The notes beneath the pieces are model-generated. The model made no database searches. It was not told where the DNA came from and worked only from the letters and a program-made list of their open reading frames with translations. 64,000 nt of DNA, taken from Cellulomonas sp. Leaf395. GTDB lineage: Bacteria > Actinomycetota > Actinomycetes > Actinomycetales > Cellulomonadaceae. The DNA is taken from NCBI RefSeq assembly GCF_001424125.1, contig NZ_LMQI01000003.1, positions 35,258 to 99,257 on the forward strand, written 5' to 3'. Position numbers and translations under genes: made by a program. Positions 2,446-18,776 of this stretch are shown piece after piece (the stretch's first letter is position 1; every line of letters begins with the position of its first letter).

Positions 2446-3918
2446 TCACTGGCCGACCAGCCAGCCCCACACCGAGCGGTCCCACCCGTCGTCGGTGACC
2501 TCGCCCTCGAGCACGGAGAGCTCCGTGACCTCTCCCGTGGTCAGGTCGGTGCGGACGGTGCGCTGCCGCCCGGCGCGGCCGTGACCGACGTAGCAGTCGT
2601 TGAGCTCGGTGACCACGGCACCGCCCCCGAACCTCAGGAAGGTCGAGTGGTCGTACGGACCCCACTCGCCCGTGAGCGGCGAGACCACGCCGTCGGCCAG
2701 CACGGCGGGGTCGCCGCCGCCGTCGCACGGAGCCTCCTGCGTGACGATCCCCAGTGCCACCCGACCGTCCCCGATCGGCGTCGCGTCGACGACCCTGTGC
2801 TCGGACGTCCCCACCAGGCGTGGGGGCGACGACGGCGTCGTCGCGTCGATGGCGAGGAGGTCGGCCGGCGTGCCGCAGGAGAGCAGCAGCTGATGCGGCC
2901 CGGACCAGCCGGCGACCGTGCACGTGCGATCCGGGGGGACGGTCGACACCGTCGTGCGGGTGGCGGATCGCAGGTCGACCAGCAGGAGCTCCCCACCGGG
3001 CGCGGTCGCCGAGACCCATGCACCGTCCGGGCTGAGGGAGGTCACGTACCGCGAGTCGTCGATCGGACCGAGGTCGCGCTGGGTTCCGTCCGCCTCGCGT
3101 ACCAGCAGGTGGAACACGATCGACGTGAACTCGGTCATGCGCAGCTGCGATCCGAGGACGTTGCGGGGCATGGGCACCGTACCTTCGGGGATCTCGGTCC
3201 GGTCCCACTGCGGCGAGGCCCACACGGTCGCGCCGTCGCGCGTCCCGCCGATCCACAGGGTGCTGGTGGGCAGGTCGGTCCAGGGTGCGAGGTCGCCGGT
3301 CCGCAGGTCCAGCGTGCCGAACAGATCCTCCTGCTCGGCGGCGGCGCCGTCCGAGCTCGACGCCAGGACCATCGGCTGACCTGCGGTCCACCGGGAGACC
3401 CCGACGCTCATGCGGTCGCTCACCACCTCCAGCACGGGGTACCGCTCACCGGTGGGGGACACCAGAAGGAGCAGCGTGCGGTAGTCGTCCGGCGTGGCGG
3501 CGTACGGGTCGACGCCCGTCCGCGACTGGACGTCGCTGACGAGCATCCACCCGGCGGTGCTGGACTCGATCAGCCCGTCCGGCAGAGGCAACGGCGTGCC
3601 GACGTGCACCGCGGGTACCGCGGGAGCCGCCGCAGGCGGTGTGGGTCTGGGCGTCGTCGTCGGGGCCGGGCTGGCGGTCGGAGCCGTGGTGGTTGCCGGG
3701 ATGGGTGGGTCCGTCAGGTGCGTGCTGAGCCAGGTCGTCACCCCGAGCACTCCGACCACGGCGACGCCGGCCATCGATTGGACGGAGTGCCGGACCGCCC
3801 GTCGCCGGCGCACCCGCCGCAGGGTCCCGGCCAGCGCGTCGGGCGTCGGTGTCTCTGCGGACCGGGCGCGAGCCACCGCGGTCTCGGTGGCGGCCAGCAG
3901 CTGTCCGAGGTCGCTCAT
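2446..3918 (-). CDS. Membrane-anchored propeller-like protein paired with sigma factor
   Basis: This 490-residue protein has an Arg-rich cytoplasmic N-terminus, one membrane span (about residues 46-64), a Thr/Pro/Ala linker (about 70-100) and a large extracytoplasmic domain. Repeated short beta-strand patterns such as GAWVSATAPGGELLLVDLRS suggest a beta-propeller. Its ATG overlaps the sigma-factor stop by four bases (ATGA), so the two genes are translationally coupled. This is the usual position of an anti-sigma factor in SigE-family pairs. The zinc anti-sigma motif HxxxCxxC is absent, so a role as regulator of the sigma factor is inferred from position and topology only. Confidence 0.75.
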   Translation of the reverse strand: MSDLGQLLAATETAVARARSAETPTPDALAGTLRRVRRRRAVRHSVQSMAGVAVVGVLGVTTWLSTHLTDPPIPATTTAPTASPAPTTTPRPTPPAAAPAVPAVHVGTPLPLPDGLIESSTAGWMLVSDVQSRTGVDPYAATPDDYRTLLLLVSPTGERYPVLEVVSDRMSVGVSRWTAGQPMVLASSSDGAAAEQEDLFGTLDLRTGDLAPWTDLPTSTLWIGGTRDGATVWASPQWDRTEIPEGTVPMPRNVLGSQLRMTEFTSIVFHLLVREADGTQRDLGPIDDSRYVTSLSPDGAWVSATAPGGELLLVDLRSATRTTVSTVPPDRTCTVAGWSGPHQLLLSCGTPADLLAIDATTPSSPPRLVGTSEHRVVDATPIGDGRVALGIVTQEAPCDGGGDPAVLADGVVSPLTGEWGPYDHSTFLRFGGGAVVTELNDCYVGHGRAGRQRTVRTDLTTGEVTELSVLEGEVTDDGWDRSVWGWLVGQ

Positions 3919-4487
3919 GACCGGTCCCCCTTCGTCGTCGAGCGACCGTCGACCAGCTCGACGGTCGGGCGATCGTGGTCGTCGACCTCGGGATCCGTGG
4001 TGGTGCCCAGCCACCGCTGCAGGGCGCTCGCGGCATCCGACGTGTACCGCTTGACCGCGCCCTGGCTGAGCCCCAGCTGGTCGGCCGTCTGCGCGACGGA
4101 CAGGTCCTCGACGTGCCGCAGGACGACGCACGCACGCTGTCGTGGGGTCAGTCGCGCGAGCGCAGCCAGGACGTCCACCTCGAGGCCGGGGAGGGTCGTC
4201 TCGACCGGCCGCTGCGGTCGGACCGCGACCCGGTCGGTGGCCCGTCGTTCGCTGGCCGCGCTGCGCGCCCGGTCGATCGAGCGGGTGGCGATGGCACGGC
4301 GCACGTACGACTCCGCCTGGGCGAGGGTGGTGAACCGGGCCCGGCTGGAGAACGTCGCGACGAGCGCGTCCTGCACCAGGTCCTCCGCCTCGGACGGCGT
4401 GGCGGCGAGGAGCGTGGCGCGGGCCAGCAGCGACGACCACCGCTCCTGGACCAGCTGTTCGAGGATGCCCTCCCACCGCGCGCTCAT
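3915..4487 (-). CDS. SigE-family RNA polymerase sigma factor
   Basis: This 190-residue sigma-70 family protein has region 2 (about residues 10-75, with the SEAEDLVQDALVATF core-binding and -10 recognition segment) and region 4 (about 115-170, LTPRQRACVVLRHVEDLSVA then a helix-turn-helix QTADQLGLSQGAVKRYTSDA). Region 3 is missing, as in extracytoplasmic-function sigmas. The start ATG at 4487 is preceded by GCAGGGGG. The downstream membrane protein overlaps by four bases and probably controls this sigma. Signal and regulon are unknown. It is divergent from the TelA-PknG operon, whose promoter shares the 209-base gap. Confidence 0.88.
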   Translation of the reverse strand: MSARWEGILEQLVQERWSSLLARATLLAATPSEAEDLVQDALVATFSSRARFTTLAQAESYVRRAIATRSIDRARSAASERRATDRVAVRPQRPVETTLPGLEVDVLAALARLTPRQRACVVLRHVEDLSVAQTADQLGLSQGAVKRYTSDAASALQRWLGTTTDPEVDDHDRPTVELVDGRSTTKGDRS

Positions 4488-4576
4488 CGGCCCCCTGCCC
4501 GTCCGTGTCGTGTCCTCACAGCAGAAGAACGGATCTTGGCAGAGACTGGTTGGTCTCCGAGCGTGTGGGCCCCCCG

Positions 4577-4585
4577 TGCTAGTGT
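4577..4585 (+). promoter_or_regulatory. Candidate extended -10 promoter for the TelA-FHA operon
   Basis: TGCTAGTGT combines a TG extension with a TANNNT hexamer (TAGTGT, 4580-4585). It lies 111 bases before the telA ATG. No good -35 is seen 16-18 bases upstream. Transcription from it would give a leader of about 105 bases that contains the tandem repeat at 4616-4643. A TTGACC at 4601 could be an alternative -35, but no matching -10 follows it. Confidence 0.35.
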
Positions 4586-4615
4586 CCGCGTGAGGACGAT
4601 TTGACCATTCCATGA

Positions 4616-4643
4616 CCTTGTGGATGCCGCCTTGTGGATGCCG
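4616..4643 (+). repeat. Perfect 14-bp tandem duplication in telA leader
   Basis: CCTTGTGGATGCCG occurs twice head to tail with no gap (4616-4629 and 4630-4643). It lies between the candidate promoter and the telA ribosome binding site (GAAGGA, 4686-4691). It may be a binding site for a dimeric regulator or a recent slippage duplication; the sequence alone does not decide. Confidence 0.7.
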
Positions 4644-4696
4644 CAGAGGACGCGGGCGAACCGCCCTCTGTGCCGCGCTGGACGTGAAGGACGACG

Positions 4697-5914
4697 ATGA
4701 CCGACGCAGCACCCCTTCAGCCCCCCGCACCGCAGTCTGCGTTCGCCCTCGAGGCGCCCGCCCCGGTGGCGCCGGTGGCGGCGACGGCGGCCTCCGCGAT
4801 GGCCCCGCAGATCCCCGAGGCCGCCCTGCCAGGCCTGAACGCCAAGGTCAACGCGTACGTCGACGGGCTCATGGCCGCCCAGATCGGGTCGCCGGAGATG
4901 GCGGGCAAGGCCGACGACATCCGCCTCATGGGCGACGCCGACATCCGGGCCGCCGCGGACACGTCGAACCGGCTGCTCCAGATGCCCGTCAAGGAGCTGC
5001 GCGAGGGTGGCGTGTCCGGCACGTCGCAGGTCAGCAAGTCGCTGCTGGACCTGCGCAAGACGGTCGAGAGCCTGGACCCCAGCGAGGCCACGATCGGCAA
5101 GAAGCTGCTCGGGCTCATCCCGTTCGGGGACTCGATGACCGACTACTTCCGCCGGTACGAGAGCTCGCAGAAGCAGATCGACGCGATCGTCCGCGCGCTC
5201 TACAACGGGCAGGACGAGCTGCGCAAGGACAACGCCGCGCTCAACCTGGAGAAGCAGCACCTCTGGGACACCATGGCCCGCCTGCACCAGTACATCTACG
5301 TCGCGGAGTCGCTGGACACGCGACTGTCGACGACGATCGCGCAGCTCGACGCGACGGACCCCGCGCGGGCCAAGGCGCTGCGCGAGGACGTCCTGTTCTA
5401 CGTGCGCCAGAAGCACCAGGACCTGCTCACCCAGCTGGCGGTCTCCATCCAGGGCTACCTGGCCATCGACATCATCATCAAGAACAACGTCGAGCTCATC
5501 AAGGGCGTCGACCGGGCGACCACCACCACGGTCGCCGCCCTGCGCACCGCCGTCATCGTCGCCCAGGCGCTGAACAACCAGCGCCTCGTGCTCAACCAGA
5601 TCACGGCCCTGAACACCACGACGACCGGCCTCATCGCGTCGACCGCCAAGATGCTCAAGGAGCAGTCGGCGGGCATCCAGGAACAAGCCGCACAGGCCAC
5701 GGTCGGGCTGCCTCAGCTGCAGCAGGCGTTCTCGGACATCTACGCGACCATGGACTCGATCGACACGTTCAAGGTCAAGGCGCTCGACTCCATGGCGACG
5801 ACCATCGGCGTCCTCGAGACCGAGACGACGAAGGCGCGCTCCTACCTCGACCGGGTCAAGCGTGCGGACACCACGGACGTGGCCAGCGGTTCGCTCGACC
5901 TCGGCACGAGCTGA
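4697..5914 (+). CDS. telA: TelA-family protein (toxic anion resistance)
   Basis: This 405-residue soluble, mostly helical protein matches the TelA/KlaA/YaaN family along most of its length (about residues 55-385). Recognisable parts are the IPFGDSMTDYFRRYESSQKQ region, the LWDTMARLHQYIYVAESLD coiled coil and the NNQRLVLNQITALNTTT segment. TelA was named from tellurite resistance in plasmid systems, and related proteins occur in membrane-stress operons. The biochemical role is unknown. The first 50 residues are Ala/Pro-rich. The ATG has GAAGGA five bases upstream. It is the first gene of the ten-gene PknG operon; the next gene, 38 bases on, looks like its XpaC-type partner. Confidence 0.88.
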   Translation: MTDAAPLQPPAPQSAFALEAPAPVAPVAATAASAMAPQIPEAALPGLNAKVNAYVDGLMAAQIGSPEMAGKADDIRLMGDADIRAAADTSNRLLQMPVKELREGGVSGTSQVSKSLLDLRKTVESLDPSEATIGKKLLGLIPFGDSMTDYFRRYESSQKQIDAIVRALYNGQDELRKDNAALNLEKQHLWDTMARLHQYIYVAESLDTRLSTTIAQLDATDPARAKALREDVLFYVRQKHQDLLTQLAVSIQGYLAIDIIIKNNVELIKGVDRATTTTVAALRTAVIVAQALNNQRLVLNQITALNTTTTGLIASTAKMLKEQSAGIQEQAAQATVGLPQLQQAFSDIYATMDSIDTFKVKALDSMATTIGVLETETTKARSYLDRVKRADTTDVASGSLDLGTS

Positions 5915-5952
5915 GCGGCCCGGGTGGGCAGAGGTTCGGGTAGGCGGCACAG

Positions 5953-6477
5953 ATGAGCTGGTTCGCGCGCCTGCTGGGGAGGCGCCAGGAGCCCGAGACT
6001 CCCGAGGTGGCCCCGGCGCCGACGACGGCCGACATCGTGGCGTCCGCGCACCAGGTCGAGCAGCAGATCGCGGGCAAGGTCCCCGCCGCGGTGACCGCGC
6101 GCGTGCTGCGGATCACCCGGACCGTCGACGACATGGCGCCGCGGCTGGACCGGCTCGGTGCCGGCAGCCAGCAGGCGCACACGGTCGTCGCGACCGCCAC
6201 GTCCTACCTGCCCGAGGCCGTGGGCGGGTACCTGCGGCTGCCGCGTGACTTCGCCGACCGCCGTGTGGTGTCGAAGGGCAAGACGTCGTTGATGGTGCTG
6301 TGCGACCAGCTCGACCTGCTCGGGGTCACGCTGGACAAGATCTCCGACGCCGTCTCCCGCGAGGACGCCAACGCCCTGGTGGCGCACGGCGCGTTCCTGG
6401 CGGAGAAGTTCGGCGGCTCGTCCCTCGCGCTGGCCCCCGAGGCCGGCCTCGACACCCCGCAGGTGGAGCACCCGTGA
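5953..6477 (+). CDS. XpaC-like partner of TelA
   Basis: This 174-residue protein is not firmly recognised. Its middle and C-terminal part (about residues 75-150) has a YLPEAVGGYLRLPRDF segment followed by helices ending near LAEKFGG. This resembles the C-terminal domain of XpaC proteins, which carry a YLP-type motif followed by paired helices and are encoded beside TelA in Firmicutes. The usual XpaC N-terminal membrane segments are missing; here the N-terminus is only MSWFARLLGRRQ plus a Pro-rich stretch. The adjacency to telA supports the assignment. The stop overlaps the AAA+ gene by four bases (GTGA). Confidence 0.55.
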   Translation: MSWFARLLGRRQEPETPEVAPAPTTADIVASAHQVEQQIAGKVPAAVTARVLRITRTVDDMAPRLDRLGAGSQQAHTVVATATSYLPEAVGGYLRLPRDFADRRVVSKGKTSLMVLCDQLDLLGVTLDKISDAVSREDANALVAHGAFLAEKFGGSSLALAPEAGLDTPQVEHP

Positions 6478-7970
6478 CGCTGACGGCAGCACTCGACGCG
6501 CTCGCGACCGTGGGCTCTTCCGCGGGGCTGGAGGACGCCGCCGTTCGCGACGAGGGCGCACGCCTCGCGGCTGCCGTCGCCGAGTCGGTCCCCGGTGCCG
6601 CCGCCGGCTGGCTCGACGCCGTGGGAGCGCACGGTGCGACCTTCGGGGCGTTCTTCGCGGCGGCGTCCAGCGCGCGACGGTGGCGCTCGGCGCCCACGGA
6701 CCTGCTGACCGGGCTCGTCGGCACCCCGCACGCTGAGCCGTACGCGGCCGCGCTCGCGGACGTCGTGTCCGCAGCCTGCGACCTCGGACCGGCTCCGATC
6801 GAGGTGATCGCGCGCGCCTCCGCCACTGCAGCCGTGCAGCGCGCCGCGGTCCACGGAACGGTCGCGACACCCGCGGAGCCGCCGTCGGCGTTCGACCTGC
6901 CGCGCGTCGACCCGTCGGTGTTCGACCTGTCCGCGCTCGCCCTGCCGCCGCTGCCGGACACCGCCGACCCGGGCCTGGTGCCCGTCCACGGCACCGCGAA
7001 GCCCGCGGCCGGCACGACGGTCGTCCCCGAGGAGAAGCCCGCCAAGACTCTGGACGAGCTGCTCGCCGAGCTCGACGCGCTCGTCGGGCTGAACCGCGTG
7101 AAGGCCGAGATCCGGCAGCAGACGCAGCTCCTGCGCATCGAGCGACTGCGCACTGAGGCGGGCCTGACCGCCCCGACACTGACCCGACACCTGGTGTTCC
7201 TGGGCAACCCGGGGACCGGGAAGACGACCGTCGCGCGCCTCGTGGCCGGGATCTACCGGGCCCTCGGGCTGCTGTCCAAGGGGCACCTGGTCGAGGTCGA
7301 CCGCTCCGAGCTGGTCGCCGGGTACCTGGGGCAGACCGCCGTCAAGACGTCCGAGGTCGTCGCGACAGCCCTGGGCGGTGTCCTGTTCGTCGACGAGGCG
7401 TACGGCCTGGCCGAGGACCAGTACGGCGCCGAGGCGGTGAACACGCTGGTCAAGGACATGGAGGACCACCGCGACGACCTCGTGGTGATCGTCGCCGGGT
7501 ACCCCGGGCCGATGGCGACCTTCCTGGCGACCAACCCCGGGCTGGAGAGCCGCTTCTCCACGACGGTCGAGTTCGACGACTACACGGACACCGAGCTGCG
7601 CGAGATCTTCGCCCGGTCCGCGGCCAAGGCCGACTTCGAGCCGACCCCCGAGTGCCTGGCGCGGTTCGAGGAGCTGGCCTCGCTCCAGATCCGCGACGAG
7701 GGGTTCGGGAACGGCCGCTACGCCCGGAACGTGCTCGACCAGGCGATCACCCGGCACGCCTGGCGCCTGCGGGACGTTGAGCAACCGACGGTGGACCAGC
7801 TGCGGCTGATCCTCCCGGAGGACCTGGTCCCGATGGCCGACGAGCCCGCGAGGGCGGACGAGCCGGAAAGGGTTGACGAGCCCGAGAGGGTTGACGAGCC
7901 CGAGAAGGTTGACGAGCCCGAGGCGGCCGACGAGCACGACGTGCCAGACCACATCGAGGAGCCCGCGTGA
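6474..7970 (+). CDS. CbxX/CfqX-type AAA+ ATPase
   Basis: This 498-residue protein has a variable N-terminal helical region (about 1-185) and one AAA+ module of the CbxX/CfqX (rubisco-activase-like, EccA-like) type at about 200-460. It shows Walker A GNPGTGKTT (about 244-252), Walker B LFVDEAYG (Asp about 307), and the family's VGLNRVKAEIRQQ and ESRFSTTVEFDDY segments. Such ATPases remodel partner proteins. The GTG start overlaps the upstream stop as GTGA, and the gene's own stop overlaps the GlnX-like start the same way. The acidic C-terminus contains five tandem six-residue repeats (see repeat feature). The likely target is another operon product, which is inference. Confidence 0.88.
   Translation: MTLTAALDALATVGSSAGLEDAAVRDEGARLAAAVAESVPGAAAGWLDAVGAHGATFGAFFAAASSARRWRSAPTDLLTGLVGTPHAEPYAAALADVVSAACDLGPAPIEVIARASATAAVQRAAVHGTVATPAEPPSAFDLPRVDPSVFDLSALALPPLPDTADPGLVPVHGTAKPAAGTTVVPEEKPAKTLDELLAELDALVGLNRVKAEIRQQTQLLRIERLRTEAGLTAPTLTRHLVFLGNPGTGKTTVARLVAGIYRALGLLSKGHLVEVDRSELVAGYLGQTAVKTSEVVATALGGVLFVDEAYGLAEDQYGAEAVNTLVKDMEDHRDDLVVIVAGYPGPMATFLATNPGLESRFSTTVEFDDYTDTELREIFARSAAKADFEPTPECLARFEELASLQIRDEGFGNGRYARNVLDQAITRHAWRLRDVEQPTVDQLRLILPEDLVPMADEPARADEPERVDEPERVDEPEKVDEPEAADEHDVPDHIEEPA
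7848..7937 (+). repeat. Five tandem 18-bp units in the AAA+ gene
   Basis: Five 18-base units encode ARADEP, ERVDEP, ERVDEP, EKVDEP and EAADEH. Units 2-4 are nearly identical in DNA and share the GTT valine codon, which is rare in this GC-rich window. This suggests recent duplication by slippage. Copy number may vary between strains. Confidence 0.85.
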
Positions 7971-9262
7971 CGCAGACCATCGCCCCGCCGACGGCATCCC
8001 AGGCCCCTGTGACCGTGGTGCACCCGGCGAACCCGGTGCACCGGACCGGGCTGCGTGGAGCGCTGAGCCGCACCCCGGGACGCCTGCGCGTCGCGGGGGT
8101 CGTGTCCGTCATCGCCGCTGCCGCCGTGGGGGTGATCGGCTGGACCACCGGCCTGGCGCAGTCGCAGGCGCTGTCCGACGCCGACGCGGACACCCGGCAG
8201 CTGGTCGGCATCCAGGACGTCCGCAACGACCTGGTCGTCGCCGACGCGACCGCGACCAACGCGTTCCTGGTGGGCGGTCTGGAGCCGCCCCAGCAGCGTG
8301 CCCGGTACGACGAGGCCGTGGCGTCGGCCGCGAACGGGCTCGCGCAGCTGGCGGGGTCCAACGCCGCCGACGCGGAGCTCCTGGGCGAGGCGACCGCCGG
8401 CCTGACCACCTACACCGGTCTGGTCGAGCAGGCCCGCGCCAACAACCGGCAGGGCTTCCCGGTCGGTGCCGCGTACCTCGACCAGGCGTCGGCAGTCCTG
8501 CGCACCGACGTGCTCCCGCAGCTCGACGAGCTGGTGCAGACCAACAGCGACCGCGTCGACGCGTCGTTCGACTCCGTCGGCTCGGTGCCGTGGCTGCTCA
8601 CGCTCGGCATCCTCGCGCTCGCGGCTCTCGTCGTCGTGCAGGTGTGGCTGGCCAAGCGCACGCACCGTCGGCTGAACGCGGGGCTGTTCTGGGCCACGGT
8701 GCTGGCGCTCGCGGCGAGCATCCTCGGTGCTGTCGTCCTCGGGTCGGCCGCGGCGAAGGCCGGTGACGCGCGCAACGGCCCCTACGACGCGACCGTCTCC
8801 GTGTCCCAGGCGTACTCGCTGGCCAACGACGCGAAGTCCCAAGAGTCGTTCACGCTCATCAAGCGCGGCTCCGGGGCGGCCTACGAGGAGCAGTTCGTCC
8901 TCAACACCGACGAGGCCAGCGAGCTCCTGGCCCGTCCCACGGTCGATCCGGCCCTGTCACCCCTGCTCGACGACTGGGTCGCGTCGCACCAGGAGATCCG
9001 CGCGCTCGACGACGCCGGGAAGTGGGACGAGGCGGTCGCCCTGGCGATCAGCGAGGAACCGGGGGCTCCGAACGACGTGTTCGAGACCTTCTCGACGGCG
9101 GCGTCCAGCAGCCTGGAGGCCAGCGCCGCCCAGACGCACGACGCGTTGGCCGGCTCGGGCGGCTCGTCCGTCCTGATCGGCTGGCTGATGCTCGTCGTCG
9201 GCCTGCTGGCAGCGGTGCTGTCCTGGCGCGGCATCTCGAAGCGAGTGGAGGAGTACCGGTGA
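7967..9262 (+). CDS. glnX: GlnX-like four-span membrane sensor
   Basis: This 431-residue membrane protein has four predicted spans (about 42-60, 207-227, 238-262 and 402-420). They leave two extracytoplasmic helical domains of about 145 and 140 residues. This is the layout of mycobacterial GlnX, which sits between GlnH and PknG and relays amino-acid binding to the kinase. Sequence identity to GlnX is not claimed; the call rests on topology, size and gene order (GlnX-GlnH just upstream of pknG). The two outer domains both look like four-helix sensor domains (for example RNDLVVADATATNAFLVGG). Starts and stops overlap neighbours as GTGA. Confidence 0.75.
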   Translation: MTQTIAPPTASQAPVTVVHPANPVHRTGLRGALSRTPGRLRVAGVVSVIAAAAVGVIGWTTGLAQSQALSDADADTRQLVGIQDVRNDLVVADATATNAFLVGGLEPPQQRARYDEAVASAANGLAQLAGSNAADAELLGEATAGLTTYTGLVEQARANNRQGFPVGAAYLDQASAVLRTDVLPQLDELVQTNSDRVDASFDSVGSVPWLLTLGILALAALVVVQVWLAKRTHRRLNAGLFWATVLALAASILGAVVLGSAAAKAGDARNGPYDATVSVSQAYSLANDAKSQESFTLIKRGSGAAYEEQFVLNTDEASELLARPTVDPALSPLLDDWVASHQEIRALDDAGKWDEAVALAISEEPGAPNDVFETFSTAASSSLEASAAQTHDALAGSGGSSVLIGWLMLVVGLLAAVLSWRGISKRVEEYR

Positions 9263-10218
9263 CCACGACACGTTCCACCACCGCCCTCGGGGTTGTCGTC
9301 GCCTCGTTCGCTCTGCTCGCGGGCTGTGCCGGCGCACCTGCCGCCGCGCCGGTGGCACAGCAGGAGCAGGCGGTCGCCTCGGTCGCGCTTCCCGCCGCGA
9401 CGGTGTGCGACGACGCCAACGAGTCCACGACGTCCTACACCCCGGGCCCGGGCGGTGCGTCCGTCCAGGCCATCCGCGACCGCGGCGCGCTGCACGTGGG
9501 CGTCTCGGCCGACACCCTCCTGATGGGCTCGCGCAACCCGTTGACCGGGCAGATCGAGGGCTTCGACATCGACATGCTGAACGCCGTGTCGGCTGCGATC
9601 TTCGGCGATGCGAGGCCGCTGCAGTTCCGCGTGATCACGTCCGCCCAGCGGCTCGAGGTGCTGGAGAACCACGAGGTCGACCTGGTGGCCCGCACGTTCA
9701 CCATGAACTGCGAGCGCTGGGAGACCATCGCGTTCTCCGCGGAGTACCTGACCGCGGGCCAGAAGGTGCTGGTCACGCGGGACTCCGACGCGCAGAGCAT
9801 CGAGGCGCTCGAAGCCCTCGGCGACCAGCGCGTCTGCGCCCCGGAGGGCACGACGACCCTGGAGCGGCTCCAGGAGACGTACCCCGGGGTCGAGGCCGTC
9901 CCCGCCCCGACGCACACCGGCTGCCTGGTGCTCTTCCAGCAGGGCAAGGTCCAGGCCATCACGGGCGACGACACGATCCTGGCCGGCTTCGTCGCGCAGG
10001 ACCCGTATGCGAAGGTCGTCGGTGAGGCGTTCAGCGCCGAGCCGTACGGCATCGGGGTCGCCGCGGACCAGGTGGACCTCGTGCAGTTTGTGAACGGTGT
10101 GCTCGACCAGGCGAAGGCGGACGGCACCTGGGCCGCGTCGTACGACCGCTGGCTGGGCGCGCTCGGTCCCGCCCCCGCGCCGCCGGTCTCGGTGTACGGC
10201 CGGGTCGACAGCCCGTGA
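9259..10218 (+). CDS. glnH: GlnH-like lipoprotein, amino-acid binding
   Basis: This 319-residue lipoprotein has a signal peptide and a lipobox ALLAGC with the acylated Cys at residue 23. A family 3 solute-binding domain follows (about 70-300), with typical segments IRDRGALHVGVS, GFDIDMLNAVSAAIFG and VDLVARTFTMNCERW. In mycobacteria the matching protein binds aspartate/glutamate and signals to PknG through GlnX rather than feeding an ABC permease. No ABC permease or ATPase gene lies here, which fits a sensor role. The ligand cannot be read directly. GTG start, GTGA overlap with glnX. Confidence 0.85.
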   Translation: MTTTRSTTALGVVVASFALLAGCAGAPAAAPVAQQEQAVASVALPAATVCDDANESTTSYTPGPGGASVQAIRDRGALHVGVSADTLLMGSRNPLTGQIEGFDIDMLNAVSAAIFGDARPLQFRVITSAQRLEVLENHEVDLVARTFTMNCERWETIAFSAEYLTAGQKVLVTRDSDAQSIEALEALGDQRVCAPEGTTTLERLQETYPGVEAVPAPTHTGCLVLFQQGKVQAITGDDTILAGFVAQDPYAKVVGEAFSAEPYGIGVAADQVDLVQFVNGVLDQAKADGTWAASYDRWLGALGPAPAPPVSVYGRVDSP

Positions 10219-11324
10219 GCGGACCTGACGCGCCCGAGGCGCCCGGCAGGCTCGGGGAGCCCATCCCCGCGCCCCAGCTGCTCCGGTACCTCAGCGGGCT
10301 CGAGGCGTGGCTGGCGCACCGCCGCGCCGAGCTCGACCGGTTGGACCAGGCCGCGCAGGCCTCGCCGGCGTCGGAGAGCTACACGGATGACGTGCTGCTC
10401 GCGCTCACGATGTGGCAGGCCATCCGCACGCGGACCGACGAGCTGGTCGAGGTGTGGGACTCGGGCCGGGCTGACGCGGTGGACCGGGAGAAGATGTCCC
10501 AGCTGGTCTGGGGCCGGCTGGACTCCGGTCTCGGCGCAGCGCTGGTCTCCCTGGTCGAGGCCGTGACGCTGTGCGACGCGATGATCTCCCAGGTCCGGGC
10601 ACGCCTCTCGTTCGACCCGGACACCGCGGACCAGGCAGCGCGGTTGCGTGGTCTGCGGGCCGGTCTCGTGCGTGCCGAGGACCTCGCGGGCGTCGACACG
10701 GCTGCGCGCGACCTCGTCGCGGGCCTGCGGTCGCGTGAGCTGAGGCTGGTGACGCAGGCGGCACGTGGCGCGGACATCTCCGGCCCGCTCGCCGAGCTGG
10801 AAGCTCGCGCGGCGCTCGCGGAGCGCGACCTCATCGTGCAGGTGTCCCAGCGGCGCACGCTGGAGAAGGGTCGCGCCGACGCACGTGCCGCGATGGCCGC
10901 GCTGGAGCAGCGGGAGCCGACGCTGCACCAGCTGGCGGACCGGTGCCGTCGGGAGATCGCGCACCCGCCCAGGCTCGCCGTGCCGGACGTGTCCCGGCTG
11001 GGTGCGGTGCCGGAGACGCGCACCGAGCTCGACGCGTTCGTGGACCGGCTCGCGGCCGTCGGCCGGGCGTTCGACGCCGTCGCCGACGCGTACAGCGCCC
11101 CGCTGCGCGAACGGGCGGAGCTGCGGTACCGGCTCGAGGGCGCGCGCGCCGCGGCCGACGCGAACGGCCGCAGCGCCTCCCCGACGGTCCGCTCCGGGTA
11201 TGACGAGGCACGTGAGGTCGTCTCCCGGACACCCTGTGAGATCACCCTGACCCGCTTCCTCGTGGAGCAGTACGAGTACCTCACCCGAGACCTGCCCACG
11301 GTGGGTCAGGAGGGACGACGATGA
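10215..11324 (+). CDS. Coiled-coil protein in PknG operon
   Basis: This 369-residue, Arg/Ala/Glu-rich protein is almost entirely helical, with long heptad-like stretches (for example RAELDRLDQAAQ near the N-terminus and LAERDLIVQVSQRRTLEKG around 195-215). There is no signal peptide, membrane span or recognised domain. It overlaps glnH (GTGA) and pknG (ATGA), so it is coupled between receptor and kinase. Mycobacterial pknG operons do not have an equivalent gene at this position as far as is known. A scaffold or adaptor linking GlnX to PknG is a reasonable guess. Confidence 0.8.
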   Translation: MSGPDAPEAPGRLGEPIPAPQLLRYLSGLEAWLAHRRAELDRLDQAAQASPASESYTDDVLLALTMWQAIRTRTDELVEVWDSGRADAVDREKMSQLVWGRLDSGLGAALVSLVEAVTLCDAMISQVRARLSFDPDTADQAARLRGLRAGLVRAEDLAGVDTAARDLVAGLRSRELRLVTQAARGADISGPLAELEARAALAERDLIVQVSQRRTLEKGRADARAAMAALEQREPTLHQLADRCRREIAHPPRLAVPDVSRLGAVPETRTELDAFVDRLAAVGRAFDAVADAYSAPLRERAELRYRLEGARAAADANGRSASPTVRSGYDEAREVVSRTPCEITLTRFLVEQYEYLTRDLPTVGQEGRR

Positions 11325-13612
11325 TCGCCTGCACCGAACCGGGTTGCACCGGCACCTACGAGGACGGCTACTGCAACGTCTGCGGGTCTCCGCAGGCCGC
11401 GACAGCAGCGGGCGCTCCCGCGTCCGCGACGTCGCTGCTCGGCACGGGGGTCGCCCAGGCGAGCCCCGACCGCTCCGCGGCGGCCGCCGACCCCGACGCC
11501 GAGCGGTCCACCCGCACCGGCCGCACCAGCTCGAGCCGGCTGGCGACGGCCGCGCTCGGGTCGGCCCGGACCGTGGCGATGGGCGCCTCGCGGCCCACGC
11601 GCCGCGTCGGCACGTCGTCGACCCGGCTGCGCGGCGCGCGGCTGGGCGCCGGGCTCACCACCGTGCCGACCGCCCCGGTCCAGGACCCGCTGCAGGCGGT
11701 GATGGCCGTCCCCGAGGTGCCCGAGCGCAAGCGCTTCTGCCCGGCGTGCGGTGCCGAGGTCGGCCGGTCGCGCGACGGGGTTCCCGGCCGGACGGCGGGC
11801 TTCTGCCCGAAGTGCGGCACCCACTTCGACTTCACGCCGTCGCTGAACCCGGGCGACCTGGTGGGCGGTCAGTACGAGGTCGTCGGCTGCCTCGCGCACG
11901 GTGGCCTGGGCTGGATCTACCTGGCGCGCGACCGCAACGTCTCGGGTCGCTGGGTGGTGCTCAAGGGCCTGCTCAACTCCGGGGACCCGGACGCGTACGC
12001 GGCGGCGATCTCGGAGCGGCAGTTCCTGGCCGAGGTCGAGCACCCGCTGATCGTCGAGATCTACAACTTCGCCATGCACGAGGGCGCCGGCTACACCGTC
12101 ATGGAGTTCGTCGGCGGTCGCTCGCTCAAGCAGATCCTGCAGGACCGTCGGGACGAGGCCGGCGGCGTCAACACGCCGCTTCCGGTGGACCAGGCGCTCG
12201 CCTTCGTCCTCGAGATCCTGCCCGCGTTCGCGTACCTGCACGACGTCGGGCTGCTGTTCTGCGACTTCAAGCCGGACAACGTGATCCAGCAGGGCGACGC
12301 GGTCAAGCTCATCGACCTCGGCGGCGTGCGCCGGATCGACGACCTGGCCTCGGCGATCTTCGGCACGGTCGGCTACCAGGCGCCCGAGGTCCCGGAGGTC
12401 GGGCCGTCCGTGGCCTCGGACATCTACACGATCGGCCGCACCCTGGCCACGCTGGTGCTGGACTTCCGCGGCAACACGAGCACCTACGTCGCGTCGCTGC
12501 CCGCCGTGTCGGACACCCCGGTCTTCCAGACGTACGACTCGTTCTACCGGCTGCTGGCCAAGGCGTGCGCCCTCGACCCGTCGGACCGGTTCGCCACGGT
12601 CGACGAGCTGCGCGCGCAGGTTCTCGGCGTGCTCCGCGAGGTCGTCGCCACCGACCGCGGCCCGGGCAGCCCGGCGCTGCACTCGGCCGCCTCCGTGCTG
12701 TTCGAGGCGCCGACCTCCGACGAGGCCGGCCACCCGCTGGCCTGGGACCAGCTGCCCGCGCTCAAGGTCGACGCGAGCGACCCGGCCGCGAGCTGGTTGG
12801 CGGGCGTCAACGTGAGCGACCCGCAGCAGCGCATCGCTGCCCTGGCGGACGCGCCGCAAGACACCGTCGAGGTCCGCCTGCGGCGGACGACGGCCGCGAT
12901 CGAGGCGGGCGCGCAGCAGCTCGTCGACGAGACGATCGCGAAGATCCTCGAGGACGATCCCTGGGAGTGGCGTGCCGCGTGGGTCGGCGGGCTCGCCCAG
13001 CTGAGCACCGGTGACCCGGTCGCGGCCCGCGCCTCGTTCAACGCGGTCTACGGGCAGGTGCCCGGGGAGCTGGCGCCGAAGCTCGCGCTGGCCACCGCGT
13101 GCGAGCTGAGCGGGGAGCCGGACATCGCGGAGTCGCTCTACGTCATCTGCGCCCGCTCGGACGCCAACTACACGGCGCCCGCGGCGTTCGGCCTGGCGCG
13201 CATCCGGCGGGCGCGCGGCGACCTGCGCGGTGCGCTCGCCGCGCTCGACCTGGTGACCGCCACGCGCAGCTCCTACGTCGACTCCCGGATGATGCGGGCG
13301 CACATCCTGGCGACGTCGAGCGGGGACCTGTCGGCGCTGTCCGACGCGCTGGCGAGCGTCCAGACCGTCTCGATCGAGCCGCGGGTACGGGCCGCGCTGC
13401 GGGTCGACGTGCTCGGGTCGGCGCTCGCGACGGTGCTGAAGACGGGTCCGTCGAGCACCGTCCTCCTGGGCGGCGTGCCCGCCCGGGAGCCCGAGCTGCG
13501 GGACGCCCTCGAGGCGGCGCTGCGGGAGTCGGCGGTGCTGAACGACAGCCACGACGAACGGATCGCGCTGGTCGACCAGGCCAACGAGGTCCGTCGGTGG
13601 ACCACGTGGTGA
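11321..13612 (+). CDS. pknG: PknG-type serine/threonine protein kinase
   Basis: This 763-residue cytosolic kinase has the PknG architecture. An N-terminal disordered region holds an extra zinc ribbon (C4, C9, C18, C21). Next come a rubredoxin-like domain (C140, C143, C162, C165), the kinase domain (about 180-425) and a C-terminal TPR domain (about 500-740). PknG hallmarks are AHGGLGWIYLARDRNV, VVLKG (Lys215), a catalytic loop FCDFKPDNV (Asp315) in place of HRD, and LIDLGG (Asp332) in place of DFG. In mycobacteria and corynebacteria PknG phosphorylates GarA/OdhI-type FHA proteins to control 2-oxoglutarate dehydrogenase. The added N-terminal zinc ribbon recurs in the phosphatase and FHA protein of this operon. 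Confidence 0.95.
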   Translation: MIACTEPGCTGTYEDGYCNVCGSPQAATAAGAPASATSLLGTGVAQASPDRSAAAADPDAERSTRTGRTSSSRLATAALGSARTVAMGASRPTRRVGTSSTRLRGARLGAGLTTVPTAPVQDPLQAVMAVPEVPERKRFCPACGAEVGRSRDGVPGRTAGFCPKCGTHFDFTPSLNPGDLVGGQYEVVGCLAHGGLGWIYLARDRNVSGRWVVLKGLLNSGDPDAYAAAISERQFLAEVEHPLIVEIYNFAMHEGAGYTVMEFVGGRSLKQILQDRRDEAGGVNTPLPVDQALAFVLEILPAFAYLHDVGLLFCDFKPDNVIQQGDAVKLIDLGGVRRIDDLASAIFGTVGYQAPEVPEVGPSVASDIYTIGRTLATLVLDFRGNTSTYVASLPAVSDTPVFQTYDSFYRLLAKACALDPSDRFATVDELRAQVLGVLREVVATDRGPGSPALHSAASVLFEAPTSDEAGHPLAWDQLPALKVDASDPAASWLAGVNVSDPQQRIAALADAPQDTVEVRLRRTTAAIEAGAQQLVDETIAKILEDDPWEWRAAWVGGLAQLSTGDPVAARASFNAVYGQVPGELAPKLALATACELSGEPDIAESLYVICARSDANYTAPAAFGLARIRRARGDLRGALAALDLVTATRSSYVDSRMMRAHILATSSGDLSALSDALASVQTVSIEPRVRAALRVDVLGSALATVLKTGPSSTVLLGGVPAREPELRDALEAALRESAVLNDSHDERIALVDQANEVRRWTTW

Positions 13613-14682
13613 CCTGCGGCGCGTGCGCGACGATCGCCGAGGAGGACTCGAGGTTCTGCGAGCACTGCGGCACGCCGCTGGGCGCCCCCGCTCCCGCCGC
13701 TGCCGCTGCAACGGCGGTCGCGGTGGTCGTCCCGGACGAGCCCACGGCCGCCCCGGTGTGCCGGGCGTGCGGCGGGACGATCGCGGCGGACGGCTACTGC
13801 GAGAACTGCGGCGAGCCGGCCGTCGACGAGCGTGACCACTGGAGCGAGCTCCCGTCGGCGCTGGTGGGCGGGGTGTGCGACCGCGGGCGGCGCAAGACTC
13901 GCAACGAGGACGCGATGGCGCTGGGGCTGAGCGGTCCGACCGCCGTCCTCGTGGTCTGCGACGGGGTGTCGAACGTGCCGGACTCCGACATCGCGAGCCT
14001 CACCGCGGCGCGCGCCGCGCGGGACGTCCTGGTCACGGGGTCGGCGGGCAGCACGGTCGGCGCATGGTCGGCGCTCCTGGTCACTGCCGCGGCTGCGGCC
14101 GACCAGGCCATCGCCGACGCCGTCGGGGACACGACGGACCGCGTCGAGCCGCCGTCGTGCACGTTCGTCGCCGCGGTCGTCGACGGCCCGACCGTCGTCG
14201 CGGGCTGGCTCGGGGACTCGCGGGTGTACTGGCTGCCGGACGAGGGGGTCGCCCACCAGGTCAGCGTCGACGACTCCGCGGCGAACGAGATGATCGCGCG
14301 CGGTGTGCCCCGGGCCAAGGCCGAGGCGTCGCGCGAGGGGCATGCCATCACCCGGTGGCTTGGCCCCGATGCCGAGACGGTGGTCCCCGGTACGGGCACC
14401 ACCCGGACGCAGGGACCCGGCTGGGTGCTCGCCTGCTCGGACGGCCTGTGGAACTACTGCTCCGAGGCCACCGACGTCGCCGACCTGCTTCACCGCACCA
14501 TCGCGCAGGTGGGAAACGCCCCGGACGTCATCGCCGCCGAGCTGGTCCGTTGGGCGAACGAGCAGGGTGGGCACGACAACATCACCGCGGCGCTGGCCCG
14601 CGTCGCAGCACCCGTCGATACTGTCCACACCGGGGACACCGGGCACGCCGTGCCGGTCGACCCGGCATCGTCCGCACGCTGA
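13597..14682 (+). CDS. PP2C-type Ser/Thr phosphatase with zinc ribbons
   Basis: This 361-residue protein has two N-terminal zinc ribbons (C7, C10, C21, C24, then a CRACG...CENCG pair starting near C55) and a complete PP2C catalytic domain (about 95-345). Metal-binding motifs are all present: RNEDAMALG, VVCDGVSN, GDSRVYWL, ACSDGLWNY and GGHDNITAAL. It should reverse PknG phosphorylation, from operon position. The start is chosen as the GTG at 13597 because GAGG at 13586-13589 is seven bases upstream. A GTG at 13609 would keep the GTGA-overlap habit but is too far from that site. It overlaps pknG by 16 bases. Confidence 0.9.
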   Translation: MDHVVTCGACATIAEEDSRFCEHCGTPLGAPAPAAAAATAVAVVVPDEPTAAPVCRACGGTIAADGYCENCGEPAVDERDHWSELPSALVGGVCDRGRRKTRNEDAMALGLSGPTAVLVVCDGVSNVPDSDIASLTAARAARDVLVTGSAGSTVGAWSALLVTAAAAADQAIADAVGDTTDRVEPPSCTFVAAVVDGPTVVAGWLGDSRVYWLPDEGVAHQVSVDDSAANEMIARGVPRAKAEASREGHAITRWLGPDAETVVPGTGTTRTQGPGWVLACSDGLWNYCSEATDVADLLHRTIAQVGNAPDVIAAELVRWANEQGGHDNITAALARVAAPVDTVHTGDTGHAVPVDPASSAR

Positions 14683-14695
14683 TCGAGGAGCCACA

Positions 14696-15973
14696 GTGGC
14701 CGACTTCCGTACCGAGGTGTTCCAGAACGAGTTCCTCTCCGACGGTGCCACGGACGTGCACGCGATCGTCACGGTCACCAGCTCCGGCGCGGGTACCGCC
14801 GCCGCCAGCAGCGGGGGAGTCGCGGAGATCGTCATCATCGACACCTCGGGGTCGATGAGCGGCCCGAACATCGACGCCGCCAAGTACGCGGCGCAGGTGG
14901 CGGTCGACCAGATCGCCGACGGCACGTGGTTCTCGGTCATCGGCGGCAGCCACGTGGCCAACCGCGCTTTCCCGTACCCGAACGCGCCGGTCGCGATCGT
15001 GCAGATGGAGCCGGGCGCGCGCGAGGAGGCCAAGCGCGCGATCTCTTACATGCGCCCGTCGGGCGGCACCGCGATGAGCACGTGGTTGCGGCTCGCCGAC
15101 GCGATCTTCGCCGAGGTTCCGCAGGTGGCGCAGAAGCACGCGATCCTGCTCACGGACGGTCGCAACGAGTCGGAGCCGCGCGGCGAGCTGTCGTCGGCGA
15201 TCCGCGCCGTCACCGGGCACTTCCAGTGCGACGCGCGCGGCGTCGGCTCCAGCTGGGAGGTCGCCGAGCTGCGCGAGATCGCTACGGCGCTGCTGGGCAC
15301 CGTGGACCTGATCCGCAACCCGGCCGACATCGCGGCGGACTTCAAGGCGCTGGTCAACGAGTCGATGTCCAAGGGTGTCGCCGATGCGGAGCTGCGCGTC
15401 TGGGCGCCGCAGGGCGCGCAGGTCCTGTTCGTCCGGCAGGTCGCCCCGACGGTCGAGGACATCACCGCGCGACGCACGGAGGTGAACGCCCTGACCGGCG
15501 CGTACCCCACCGGGGCGTGGGGGGACGAGTCCCGCGACTACCACGTGGCGATCCGGGTGCCGTCGAAGCCTGTCGGCTCGGAGCAGCTGGCGGCGCGCGT
15601 GCAGATCGCGGTCGGCGGTGACGTGCTGGCCTCCGGGCTGGTCAAGGCTCGCTGGTCCGACGACAGCTCGCTGACGGCCCGCATCAACCCCGAGGTCGCG
15701 CACTACACGGGGCAGGCCGAGCTCGCGTCGGTCATCCAGGAAGGCCTGGCCGCGAAGGCGTCCGGCGACGAGGCCACCGCGACCGTGAAGCTGGGCCGCG
15801 CGGTGCAGCTGGCCGCGGAGACCGGCAACGAGGAGGCCACGTCCCGGCTGCGGCGCGTGGTCGAGATCGACGACGAGGAACAGGGCACGGTGCGACTCAA
15901 GCGCAACACCGACAAGCTCGACGAGATGGCGCTCGACACGGCCTCGACAAAGACCACCCGGGTCCGCCGGTGA
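14696..15973 (+). CDS. VWA domain protein
   Basis: This 425-residue protein has a von Willebrand factor A domain (about 43-220) with an intact MIDAS, DTSGSMSG (Asp49, Ser51, Ser53), and the later TAMSTWLRLADAIF and AILLTDGRN segments. A beta-rich middle (about 240-345) and a charged helical C-terminus (about 350-425) follow. There is no signal peptide, so it is cytosolic. Cytosolic VWA proteins encoded with AAA+ ATPases often act as metal-dependent adaptors; the CbxX-type ATPase of the same operon is a candidate partner. GTG start with GAGGAG five bases upstream, 13 bases after the phosphatase stop, the only non-overlapping junction downstream of telA and its partner. Confidence 0.88.
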   Translation: MADFRTEVFQNEFLSDGATDVHAIVTVTSSGAGTAAASSGGVAEIVIIDTSGSMSGPNIDAAKYAAQVAVDQIADGTWFSVIGGSHVANRAFPYPNAPVAIVQMEPGAREEAKRAISYMRPSGGTAMSTWLRLADAIFAEVPQVAQKHAILLTDGRNESEPRGELSSAIRAVTGHFQCDARGVGSSWEVAELREIATALLGTVDLIRNPADIAADFKALVNESMSKGVADAELRVWAPQGAQVLFVRQVAPTVEDITARRTEVNALTGAYPTGAWGDESRDYHVAIRVPSKPVGSEQLAARVQIAVGGDVLASGLVKARWSDDSSLTARINPEVAHYTGQAELASVIQEGLAAKASGDEATATVKLGRAVQLAAETGNEEATSRLRRVVEIDDEEQGTVRLKRNTDKLDEMALDTASTKTTRVRR

Positions 15974-16743
15974 GCACCGTCACCTGCCCCAACGGTCACC
16001 CCTCCACCTCGACCGACTACTGCGACGTCTGCGGCTCGCCCATCGAGGCGGCTGTCTCGGTGGAGGCGCCCGCGCCCGCTGCGCCGTCCTCGACGGGGAC
16101 GGCGACGACCTGCCCGCACTGCGGGGCCCCCGCGTCGTCGCTGGCCCTGTTCTGCGAGGTGTGCGGCTACGACTTCACGACGGGTACCGCACCGGCCCCG
16201 ATCCCTGCCCCGGCCCCGATCCCTGCCCCGGCCTCGGACCCGGCGCCGGCCTCGAGCCCCGCTCCTGCGAGCACCCCGACACCGGCGGTCGAGGCCGATC
16301 CCGCCGGCACGGCGCTCCCCACCCCTGCCCCCGAGGGCGAGGACTCGTGGGTCGCCGAGATCTGGGTCGACCCGGACTGGTACGCGGCGCAGAAGGCCGA
16401 GGACCCGATGCCGTCGGCCGGTCTGCCCGGCCTGGTCCCGCTGCGGGAGCGCAGCGTGCTCGTCGGCCGTCCGTCGGTGTCCCGCAACATCCACCCCGCG
16501 GTCGACTGCGGCACGGACTCCGGCGTCTCCCGCCGGCACTGCCAGCTCAACACCGACGGCCAGCGGTGGTGGGTGGAGGACCTGCAGTCCGCCAACGGCA
16601 CCTACGTGAGCCGCGCGGGCGACCCTCTGCCGACCACCCCGATCCCCGCCGGCCAGCGCCGGGAGATCGAGGACGGCGACCGGCTCTACCTCGGGGCGTG
16701 GACCCGCATCGTGATCCGGACGGCGCTGCCGGGCGAGGTCTGA
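15970..16743 (+). CDS. FHA domain protein with zinc ribbons
   Basis: This 257-residue protein has an N-terminal zinc ribbon (C6, C18, C21 with His10 as a possible ligand), a second ribbon (CPHCG ... CEVCG, about 50-70), a Pro/Ala linker (about 78-125) and an FHA domain (about 150-250). The FHA phosphothreonine-binding residues are visible in LVGRPSVSRN, SRRHCQL and SANGTYVS. FHA domains read phosphothreonine, so it is the likely reader of PknG activity. It lacks the N-terminal phospho-motif arrangement of GarA/OdhI, so it is not simply GarA. It overlaps the VWA stop as GTGA. The linker holds a perfect 18-bp duplication at 16195-16230. Confidence 0.88.
   Translation: MSTVTCPNGHPSTSTDYCDVCGSPIEAAVSVEAPAPAAPSSTGTATTCPHCGAPASSLALFCEVCGYDFTTGTAPAPIPAPAPIPAPASDPAPASSPAPASTPTPAVEADPAGTALPTPAPEGEDSWVAEIWVDPDWYAAQKAEDPMPSAGLPGLVPLRERSVLVGRPSVSRNIHPAVDCGTDSGVSRRHCQLNTDGQRWWVEDLQSANGTYVSRAGDPLPTTPIPAGQRREIEDGDRLYLGAWTRIVIRTALPGEV
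16195..16230 (+). repeat. 18-bp tandem duplication in FHA linker
   Basis: GCCCCGATCCCTGCCCCG occurs twice in a row (16195-16212, 16213-16230), encoding a repeated Pro/Ala/Ile linker segment. It is in frame and only lengthens the flexible linker. Confidence 0.85.
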
Positions 16744-18767: not shown

Positions 18768-18776
18768 GGAGCCCAC

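Follow-up and report, generated by a model that had tools for sequence, protein, structure and literature searches.

Is the kinase gene pknG of Cellulomonas sp. Leaf395 part of a three-gene amino acid sensing operon, as in mycobacteria, or of something larger, and which of the two forms came first? The question is raised by a run of ten genes in a stretch of 64,000 nucleotides of contig NZ_LMQI01000003.1, here called the window. The ten open reading frames, named A to J, lie at positions 4697..16743 on the + strand with at most 38 bases of intergenic space. A 4-base overlap is found at seven of the nine junctions (B/C, C/D, D/E, E/F, F/G, G/H and I/J), and the other two are gaps of 38 bases (A/B) and 13 bases (H/I). 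The set is real and widely conserved; it is a larger variant of the known GlnX-GlnH-PknG pathway, of which the known three-gene form is likely the reduced one. Judging from the sequence, we consider it probable that the ten genes form an operon in which a predicted GlnH/GlnX receptor would switch PknG, with a PP2C phosphatase, an FHA protein and a VWA protein as partners.

Gene content and conservation

Genes D to J encode the seven proteins which co-occur not only in Cellulomonadaceae but also in Streptomyces, Actinoplanes and other families. GlnX (D, 7967..9262, GTG start) is a membrane sensor with four hydrophobic spans that passes the model NF058618 with 330.5 bits (cut-off 250) and stays below the narrower equivalog NF041460 (138.7 of 780). 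It is followed by a GlnH-like solute-binding lipoprotein (E, 9259..10218, GTG start) with an SBP_bac_3 domain, a lipobox-like LAGC and 217 bits to the GlnH structures 6h2t/6h1u. The next protein is all-helical, with a coiled coil (F, 10215..11324, GTG start); its AlphaFold2 model is nearly all helix with a predicted local distance difference test score (pLDDT) of 91, no Pfam family was found for it, and no PDB fold matched it at E<=0.001. PknG itself (G, 11321..13612) combines a zinc ribbon, a rubredoxin domain, a kinase domain and a TPR domain (PF16919, PF00069, PF16918), with 480 bits to the solved PknG 2pzi; the closest named PknG is that of Cellulomonas fengjieae, which is 91% identical. 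The PP2C phosphatase (H, 13609..14682, GTG start; PF13672, PF00481) has an N-terminal double zinc ribbon with DZR over the cut-off. The VWA protein (I, 14696..15973; PF13768 and PF18571, that is VWA_3 and VWA_3_C) has a GTG start preceded by GAGGAG and an intact metal ion-dependent adhesion site (MIDAS), and the FHA protein (J, 15970..16743; PF00498) has two N-terminal zinc ribbons, with Zn_ribbon_3 and DZR just under the cut-off.

Upstream of GlnX, the run starts with a TelA-family protein of 405 amino acids (A, 4697..5914; PF05816, 307 bits), followed by a 174 amino acid, all-helical protein without an assigned family (B, 5953..6477; AlphaFold2 pLDDT 84, alignment with 22 relatives) and an AAA+ ATPase with Walker motifs (C, 6474..7970, GTG start). 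Because AAA and AAA_lid_6 pass and none of three curated NCBIfam equivalogs does (SpoVK 254 of 423, EccA 237 of 467, CbbX 225 of 459), C is of CbxX/SpoVK type in the broad sense only. The original prediction had described ten same-strand genes that nearly all overlap by four bases, which agrees with the junctions. Eight of its protein labels are supported by family models and its coiled-coil label fits the all-helical model of F. Its label XpaC for protein B is not supported: neither Pfam (E<=0.1) nor NCBIfam (E<=0.01) gave a family for it, and the PDB gave no fold at E<=0.001.

We annotated the 80 nearest named PknG loci with profiles made from the window's own proteins. All ten genes were found in 40 of these loci, the seven genes from GlnX to FHA in 22, and all genes except GlnH in three. 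Of the remaining 15, 13 are cut by a contig end and two are uncut, namely L051 of Paraoerskovia marina and L058 of Kineosporia. In the phylum sample 20 of 296 genomes pass the PknG_TPR cut-off; in the class sample VWA_3_C reaches E<=0.001 in 71 of 296 genomes and passes the cut-off in 69, and 40 stretches were analysed.

The 140 PknG loci compared are a non-random, biased set, chosen because they resemble the PknG of the window or have a PknG_TPR or VWA_3_C match. The original prediction would have been refuted by a gene order that differs among relatives. The order is ABCDEFGHIJ in 41 of the 140, DEFGHIJ in 39, DEG in 12 and FGHIJDE in 8, the others being cut, partial or PknG alone; it is thus conserved. 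The order FGHIJDE reflects one family (f88) which has the seven genes together, re-ordered. Ten of the 12 DEG loci belong to family f7, which includes Mycobacterium. We inferred the genus and family names of the coded genomes: f6 was taken as Streptomyces from a 100% match of its query (G182) to Streptomyces aureus, and f7 as the Mycobacterium family from the 1405 bits of the PknG of its genome L104 to 2pzi, a mycobacterial structure. In genome G189 (L097) GlnX and GlnH adjoin the other five genes on the opposite strand.

The 4-base overlaps recur in relatives where the window has them: at C/D in 57 of 58 loci, F/G in 95/113, G/H in 84/113, D/E in 87/118, I/J in 79/109, B/C in 42/52 and E/F in 60/95. 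As in the window, A/B and H/I seldom overlap (1/47 and 8/112). This recurrence of order and overlaps in the 140 loci is far beyond chance. TelA, the 174 amino acid protein and the AAA+ ATPase were seen in one large clade only, where upstream sequence was in view; the positions of A to C are out of view in many VWA-centred loci and in L014 and L063, two of the 22 seven-gene loci, where the contig ends upstream.

The residues of the catalytic and binding motifs are conserved in alignments of rows with more than 90 bits and above a minimum length, counted where readable. In PknG these are Lys215 (133/133), Asp315 and Asp332 (134/134) as well as N320, in PP2C Asp118 and Asp278 (112/112) and Asp323 (111/111), in the VWA protein the MIDAS residues D49, S51, S53, T125 and D154 (122/122), in the FHA protein Arg167, Ser187 and Asn209 (116/116) and in the AAA+ ATPase Walker A and the Asp-Glu of Walker B (51/51).

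Two other identities were rejected. The window's PknG is not a paralogue of a canonical PknG, as the genome has one full PknG and its two further PknG matches span the kinase part only. An anti-phage defence system was also rejected: three of the proteins match PADLOC models, all of them for kinases, AAA proteins or PP2C from unrelated systems, and the other seven match none. Elsewhere, PknG copies were detected for which GlnX or GlnH was not found beside them (L092, L093, L184 and L185), and Streptomyces has a second, very divergent PknG-like kinase (L087, L088 and L089) with an adjoining VWA gene in three of four loci.

Zinc ribbons and the direction of change

The N-terminus of the window's PknG has a four-Cys zinc ribbon, CTEPGC..DGYCNVCG (C4 to C21, 11330..11383, + strand, read from the sequence), followed by a Ser/Thr/Arg-rich linker and then the rubredoxin domain. 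In the mycobacterial three-gene PknG the rubredoxin Cys pairs are the only ones, and an N-terminal ribbon was not found. Ribbons were called by pattern matches on stop-to-stop frames. Among PknGs with more than 6 kb of sequence rightward, those with PP2C and VWA nearby have the strict ribbon in 94 cases and none in 10, and those without both nearby have a ribbon in 3 cases and none in 19. Of the 10, five match a laxer pattern only and three are fragments of genes; the other two are a diverged kinase and L082, whose N-terminus is unaligned. In the 87 rows of the tree described below, the pattern is present in all 66 rows with PP2C and VWA (61 strict, 5 by the laxer three-Cys pattern) and in 3 of the 21 rows without both partners. 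One of these three exceptions is the Kineosporia locus L058, whose genome has a full ten-gene operon elsewhere (L140). Counted over independent pairs, about 4 of 6 are concordant with a median p of 0.125, which is not significant; the tracking of PP2C and VWA by the PknG ribbon is therefore suggestive only.

Other proteins of the set carry ribbons as well. By a rough criterion, two or more CxxC before the domain, ribbons are present in 117 of 123 PP2C and 113 of 116 FHA matches, and OdhI homologues with a ribbon were found in 10 of 30 genomes, Streptomyces included. In the Streptomyces OdhI/GarA homologues L117-L121 the N-terminal ribbon stands immediately ahead of the ETTS-type motif.

The PknG tree was calculated without the N-terminus by a quick search, with Shimodaira-Hasegawa-like approximate likelihood ratio test (SH-aLRT) support and no bootstrap. 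After removal of near-duplicates, 33 of the 80 named loci are among its 87 rows, the floor being 480 bits; 11 loci (fragments, cut N-termini and diverged kinases) and L183 (272 amino acids after trimming) were left out. The PknGs of the Mycobacterium family form one clade with SH-aLRT 100, made up of nine rows with GlnX-GlnH-PknG and two with PknG alone. Sister to this clade (99) is L161, from a seven-gene operon of genome G573, which shares its genus code with mycobacterial genomes. Together they nest among seven-gene PknG rows (95), with the re-ordered seven-gene rows of f88 outside. The seven genes are found in a Solirubrobacteraceae metagenome-assembled genome (L063) too, which belongs to another class. 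Because of this nesting and of L063, the mycobacterial three-gene operon is likely a reduction of the larger form, and the original prediction, which had spoken of an expanded operon, probably had the direction wrong. The root of the tree rests on a very long outgroup branch (3.55), so that the claim of seven genes first relies on the nesting and on L063.

Three copies of PknG are present in genome G573, one in the seven-gene operon (L161, on G573:C144) and two in GlnX-GlnH-PknG loci (L182 and L183). The ribbon is on the seven-gene copy and absent from the other two, in one of which the PknG frame stops shortly past the kinase. The seven-gene stretch has a G+C of 0.684, and its trinucleotide correlation is 0.973-0.985 with four stretches of the mycobacterial family and 0.949-0.969 with three from other families. 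Contamination as the origin of this operon is not favoured, given the sister position of its PknG to the mycobacterial clade and a composition that points the same way by a thin margin.

The Paraoerskovia marina operon (L051) has an intermediate form, between the large operons and the small ones. It consists of GlnX-GlnH-PknG-FHA, the coiled-coil, PP2C and VWA genes being gone from it and the ribbon absent from PknG, with the FHA gene still adjoining pknG. No VWA match was found genome-wide in this species; the absence of PP2C refers to the operon and was not searched genome-wide.

The genes flanking the run in the window that were checked are of other kinds than those of the run. A divergent sigma-70-family gene (3915-4730, - strand) lies just upstream of the TelA gene, with a putative membrane anti-sigma gene (by eye; 2446-4476, - strand) behind it. 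After the run a rhomboid-like gene follows on the minus strand, and downstream of the run, at 17559-24130, an MFS transporter-like gene and then narG- and narH-like genes, by eye only.

Proposed mechanism and alternative explanations

By analogy with mycobacteria and corynebacteria, an amino acid would bind GlnH, and GlnH with its ligand would signal to the PknG TPR domain by way of GlnX. A GlnX signal to the TPR domain is proposed in PMC6069109 and PMC8546545. PknG would then autophosphorylate its Ser/Thr/Arg-rich N-terminal linker and phosphorylate OdhI/GarA, whose Thr-Thr motif is kept, and 2-oxoglutarate dehydrogenase would be released. The PP2C of the operon may be a dedicated eraser which resets kinase and OdhI, in the role of the corynebacterial phosphatase Ppp, by which OdhI is dephosphorylated according to PMC9769921. 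The FHA protein may dock onto the autophosphorylated linker, and the zinc ribbons that PknG, PP2C and FHA proteins carry could, together with the VWA protein, keep the parts in one assembly. TelA, the 174 amino acid protein and the AAA+ ATPase are a clade-specific module which, as a guess, may remodel the assembly or act on the membrane. In this reading the PknG ribbon would have disappeared in mycobacteria along with four genes, those for the coiled-coil, PP2C, VWA and FHA proteins.

The presumed target of PknG lies outside the operon. An OdhI homologue is encoded at G000:C5 of the window's genome with 158 bits (OdhI equivalog cut-off 200), and a 1298 amino acid frame elsewhere contains the OdhA C-terminal domain. 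OdhI has more than 120 bits in 29 of the 30 genomes searched, 7 of which pass the equivalog cut-off. The one without is Intrasporangium flavum (L052, G308), a draft genome with the full operon and no OdhI above 56 bits. The motif [DE]TT is kept in 22 of the 30 homologues, that of the window's genome included.

With three further PP2C_2 genes in the genome, the PP2C of the operon is an extra, local phosphatase. One of the three adjoins two FHA genes (G000:C1, about 110-111.5 kb), and no GlnX, GlnH or PknG match was found in the stretch of about 3.3 kb covered at this locus (L107, L108). It resembles the operon in having PP2C with FHA proteins and differs in being a separate locus of the same genome; it corresponds to the pstP-type locus of actinobacteria.

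In the predicted pocket of GlnH the equivalents of the mycobacterial Arg147, Thr162, Arg169 and Asp250 are retained, and Lys161 is changed to Arg, Ser164 to Thr and Trp232 to His. Trp232 is a side-chain contact in mycobacterial GlnH, and Trp was found at this position in 9 of 10 GlnHs of the mycobacterial family. Because the pocket is partly kept and partly changed, the ligand is likely an amino acid, and Asp or Glu is not certain.

Several observations weigh against a receptor-switched PknG with the operon's proteins as partners. Among the 43 GlnHs aligned from the window's group, 42 have His at the position of Trp232 (the other has a gap) and 23 have Ala at that of Thr162. The OdhI of the window's genome has DTTMSF where GarA has ETTSVF, and so departs from ETTS, and it is without a ribbon. 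Such zinc ribbons are common on other bacterial proteins, and the link between ribbon and partners is not significant over the independent pairs given above. The distribution is patchy: in the class sample the VWA family was found in none of 19 listed genomes of the same order, nor in one listed genome of the same family. In three Propionibacteriaceae-type loci (L053, L059 and L060) GlnH was the one gene of the ten that was not found. Some f89 genomes have PP2C-VWA-FHA clusters for which no adjoining PknG was found (L146, L148, L162 and L167). Finally, what is known from the sequence is gene content, order, overlaps, intact motifs and the wide conservation of the seven genes; the functions are putative.

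Two side results belong to these loci. A sensor fused to GlnX, in place of GlnH, was not seen in L053, L059 and L060, whose GlnX is of ordinary length. At L146, SpoU methylase and cysteinyl-tRNA ligase genes lie near PP2C-VWA-FHA, the genes checked there being of unrelated families.

The alternative that survives best, which we regard as unlikely but worth weighing, is that PP2C, VWA and FHA are a general phospho-switch of the TerY-P kind, merely co-transcribed with GlnX-GlnH-PknG. PknG alone would then control OdhI, and the trio, with TelA and AAA+, would have a stress or envelope function. VWA, PP2C and a Ser/Thr kinase do make up the TerY-P triad in PMC11090510, the f89 clusters occur without an adjoining PknG, and the pathway works in mycobacteria without PP2C, VWA and FHA genes. 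Against a mere co-transcription, the trio still accompanies PknG after the re-ordering of the genes, the PknG ribbon is mostly absent where PP2C and VWA are absent, and in Paraoerskovia marina the FHA gene lies directly 3' of PknG despite the loss of PP2C and VWA from the operon.

Less probable still is a re-targeted kinase, of which the FHA protein of the operon, and not OdhI, would be the main substrate and output. The DTTMSF motif and the score below the equivalog cut-off in Cellulomonas would fit this, as would Intrasporangium flavum, with its full operon and no OdhI above the threshold just given. That genome is a draft, however, [DE]TT is kept in most OdhI homologues, and the FHA protein of the operon has 28 bits on the OdhI model and no ETT motif. 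A chance or annotation-level co-location without a functional unit has hardly any probability left, even with evidence that is sequence only, since it is contradicted by the order, strand and 4-base overlaps that recur in many families.

Relation to described systems and biological meaning

The closest known system is the GlnX-GlnH-PknG(-OdhI/GarA) pathway of Mycobacterium and Corynebacterium, as described in PMC6069109, PMC9769921 and PMC8546545. The likeness extends to GlnX, the GlnH relative, the rubredoxin and TPR domains and intact catalytic residues of PknG, and OdhI and OdhA-type genes in the genome. Beyond that pathway, the window has genes for the coiled-coil, PP2C, VWA and FHA proteins, as well as for TelA, the 174 amino acid protein and AAA+. 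Its PknG has a zinc ribbon, the GlnH residue at Trp232 differs and the NF041460 cut-off is not reached.

The TerY-P triad is the nearest described module (PMC11090510): VWA, PP2C, a Ser/Thr kinase and zinc ribbons are in one operon in the window too, and SpoVK-family AAA+ ATPases adjoin VWA genes in some TerY-P-type systems. The window's set resembles parts of the triad and departs from it in kinase architecture. In the triad the kinase has a C-terminal ribbon, whereas the window's PknG has an N-terminal ribbon with rubredoxin, a C-terminal TPR domain and a coupling to a receptor. PMC11090510 cites Anantharaman et al. 2012 on the triad.

The operon arrangement is said to be conserved in Actinomycetales and other Actinobacteria in PMC6069109, in which the text names three genes. 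We found no description of the seven- or ten-gene unit in the open literature, as far as the sources were available; the STRING figure 2B of PMC6069109 may show some of the neighbours. The original claim that the set is not described as a unit therefore holds within that scope. The joining of receptor, kinase, phosphatase and FHA reader stands as well, in one conserved run with recurrent 4-base overlaps and intact motifs. Two terms of that claim do not suit the set: "phospho-relay" is wrong for Ser/Thr kinase and PP2C families, and "self-contained" is wrong provided that the set follows the known pathway, as OdhI/GarA and OdhA are encoded elsewhere and another PP2C-FHA locus exists.

PknG is much studied, and its mycobacterial and corynebacterial model consists of sensor, kinase and substrate. 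Should the seven-gene form have come first, this model would lack the phosphatase, reader and scaffold of PknG. A more far-reaching idea, to which we hold only tentatively, is that PknG across actinobacteria may be the core of a zinc-ribbon-tagged complex of receptor, phosphatase, reader and VWA scaffold, with a ribbon even on the Streptomyces OdhI, and that the three-gene, tuberculosis-type operon may be its remnant, with eraser, scaffold and ribbon lost together. Streptomyces, an easy host, has the full seven-gene set, and G573 offers a natural comparison of seven-gene and three-gene PknG loci within one genome. Newly testable are the switching-off of amino-acid sensing, what the N-terminus of PknG recruits, and why mycobacteria could drop parts of the set.

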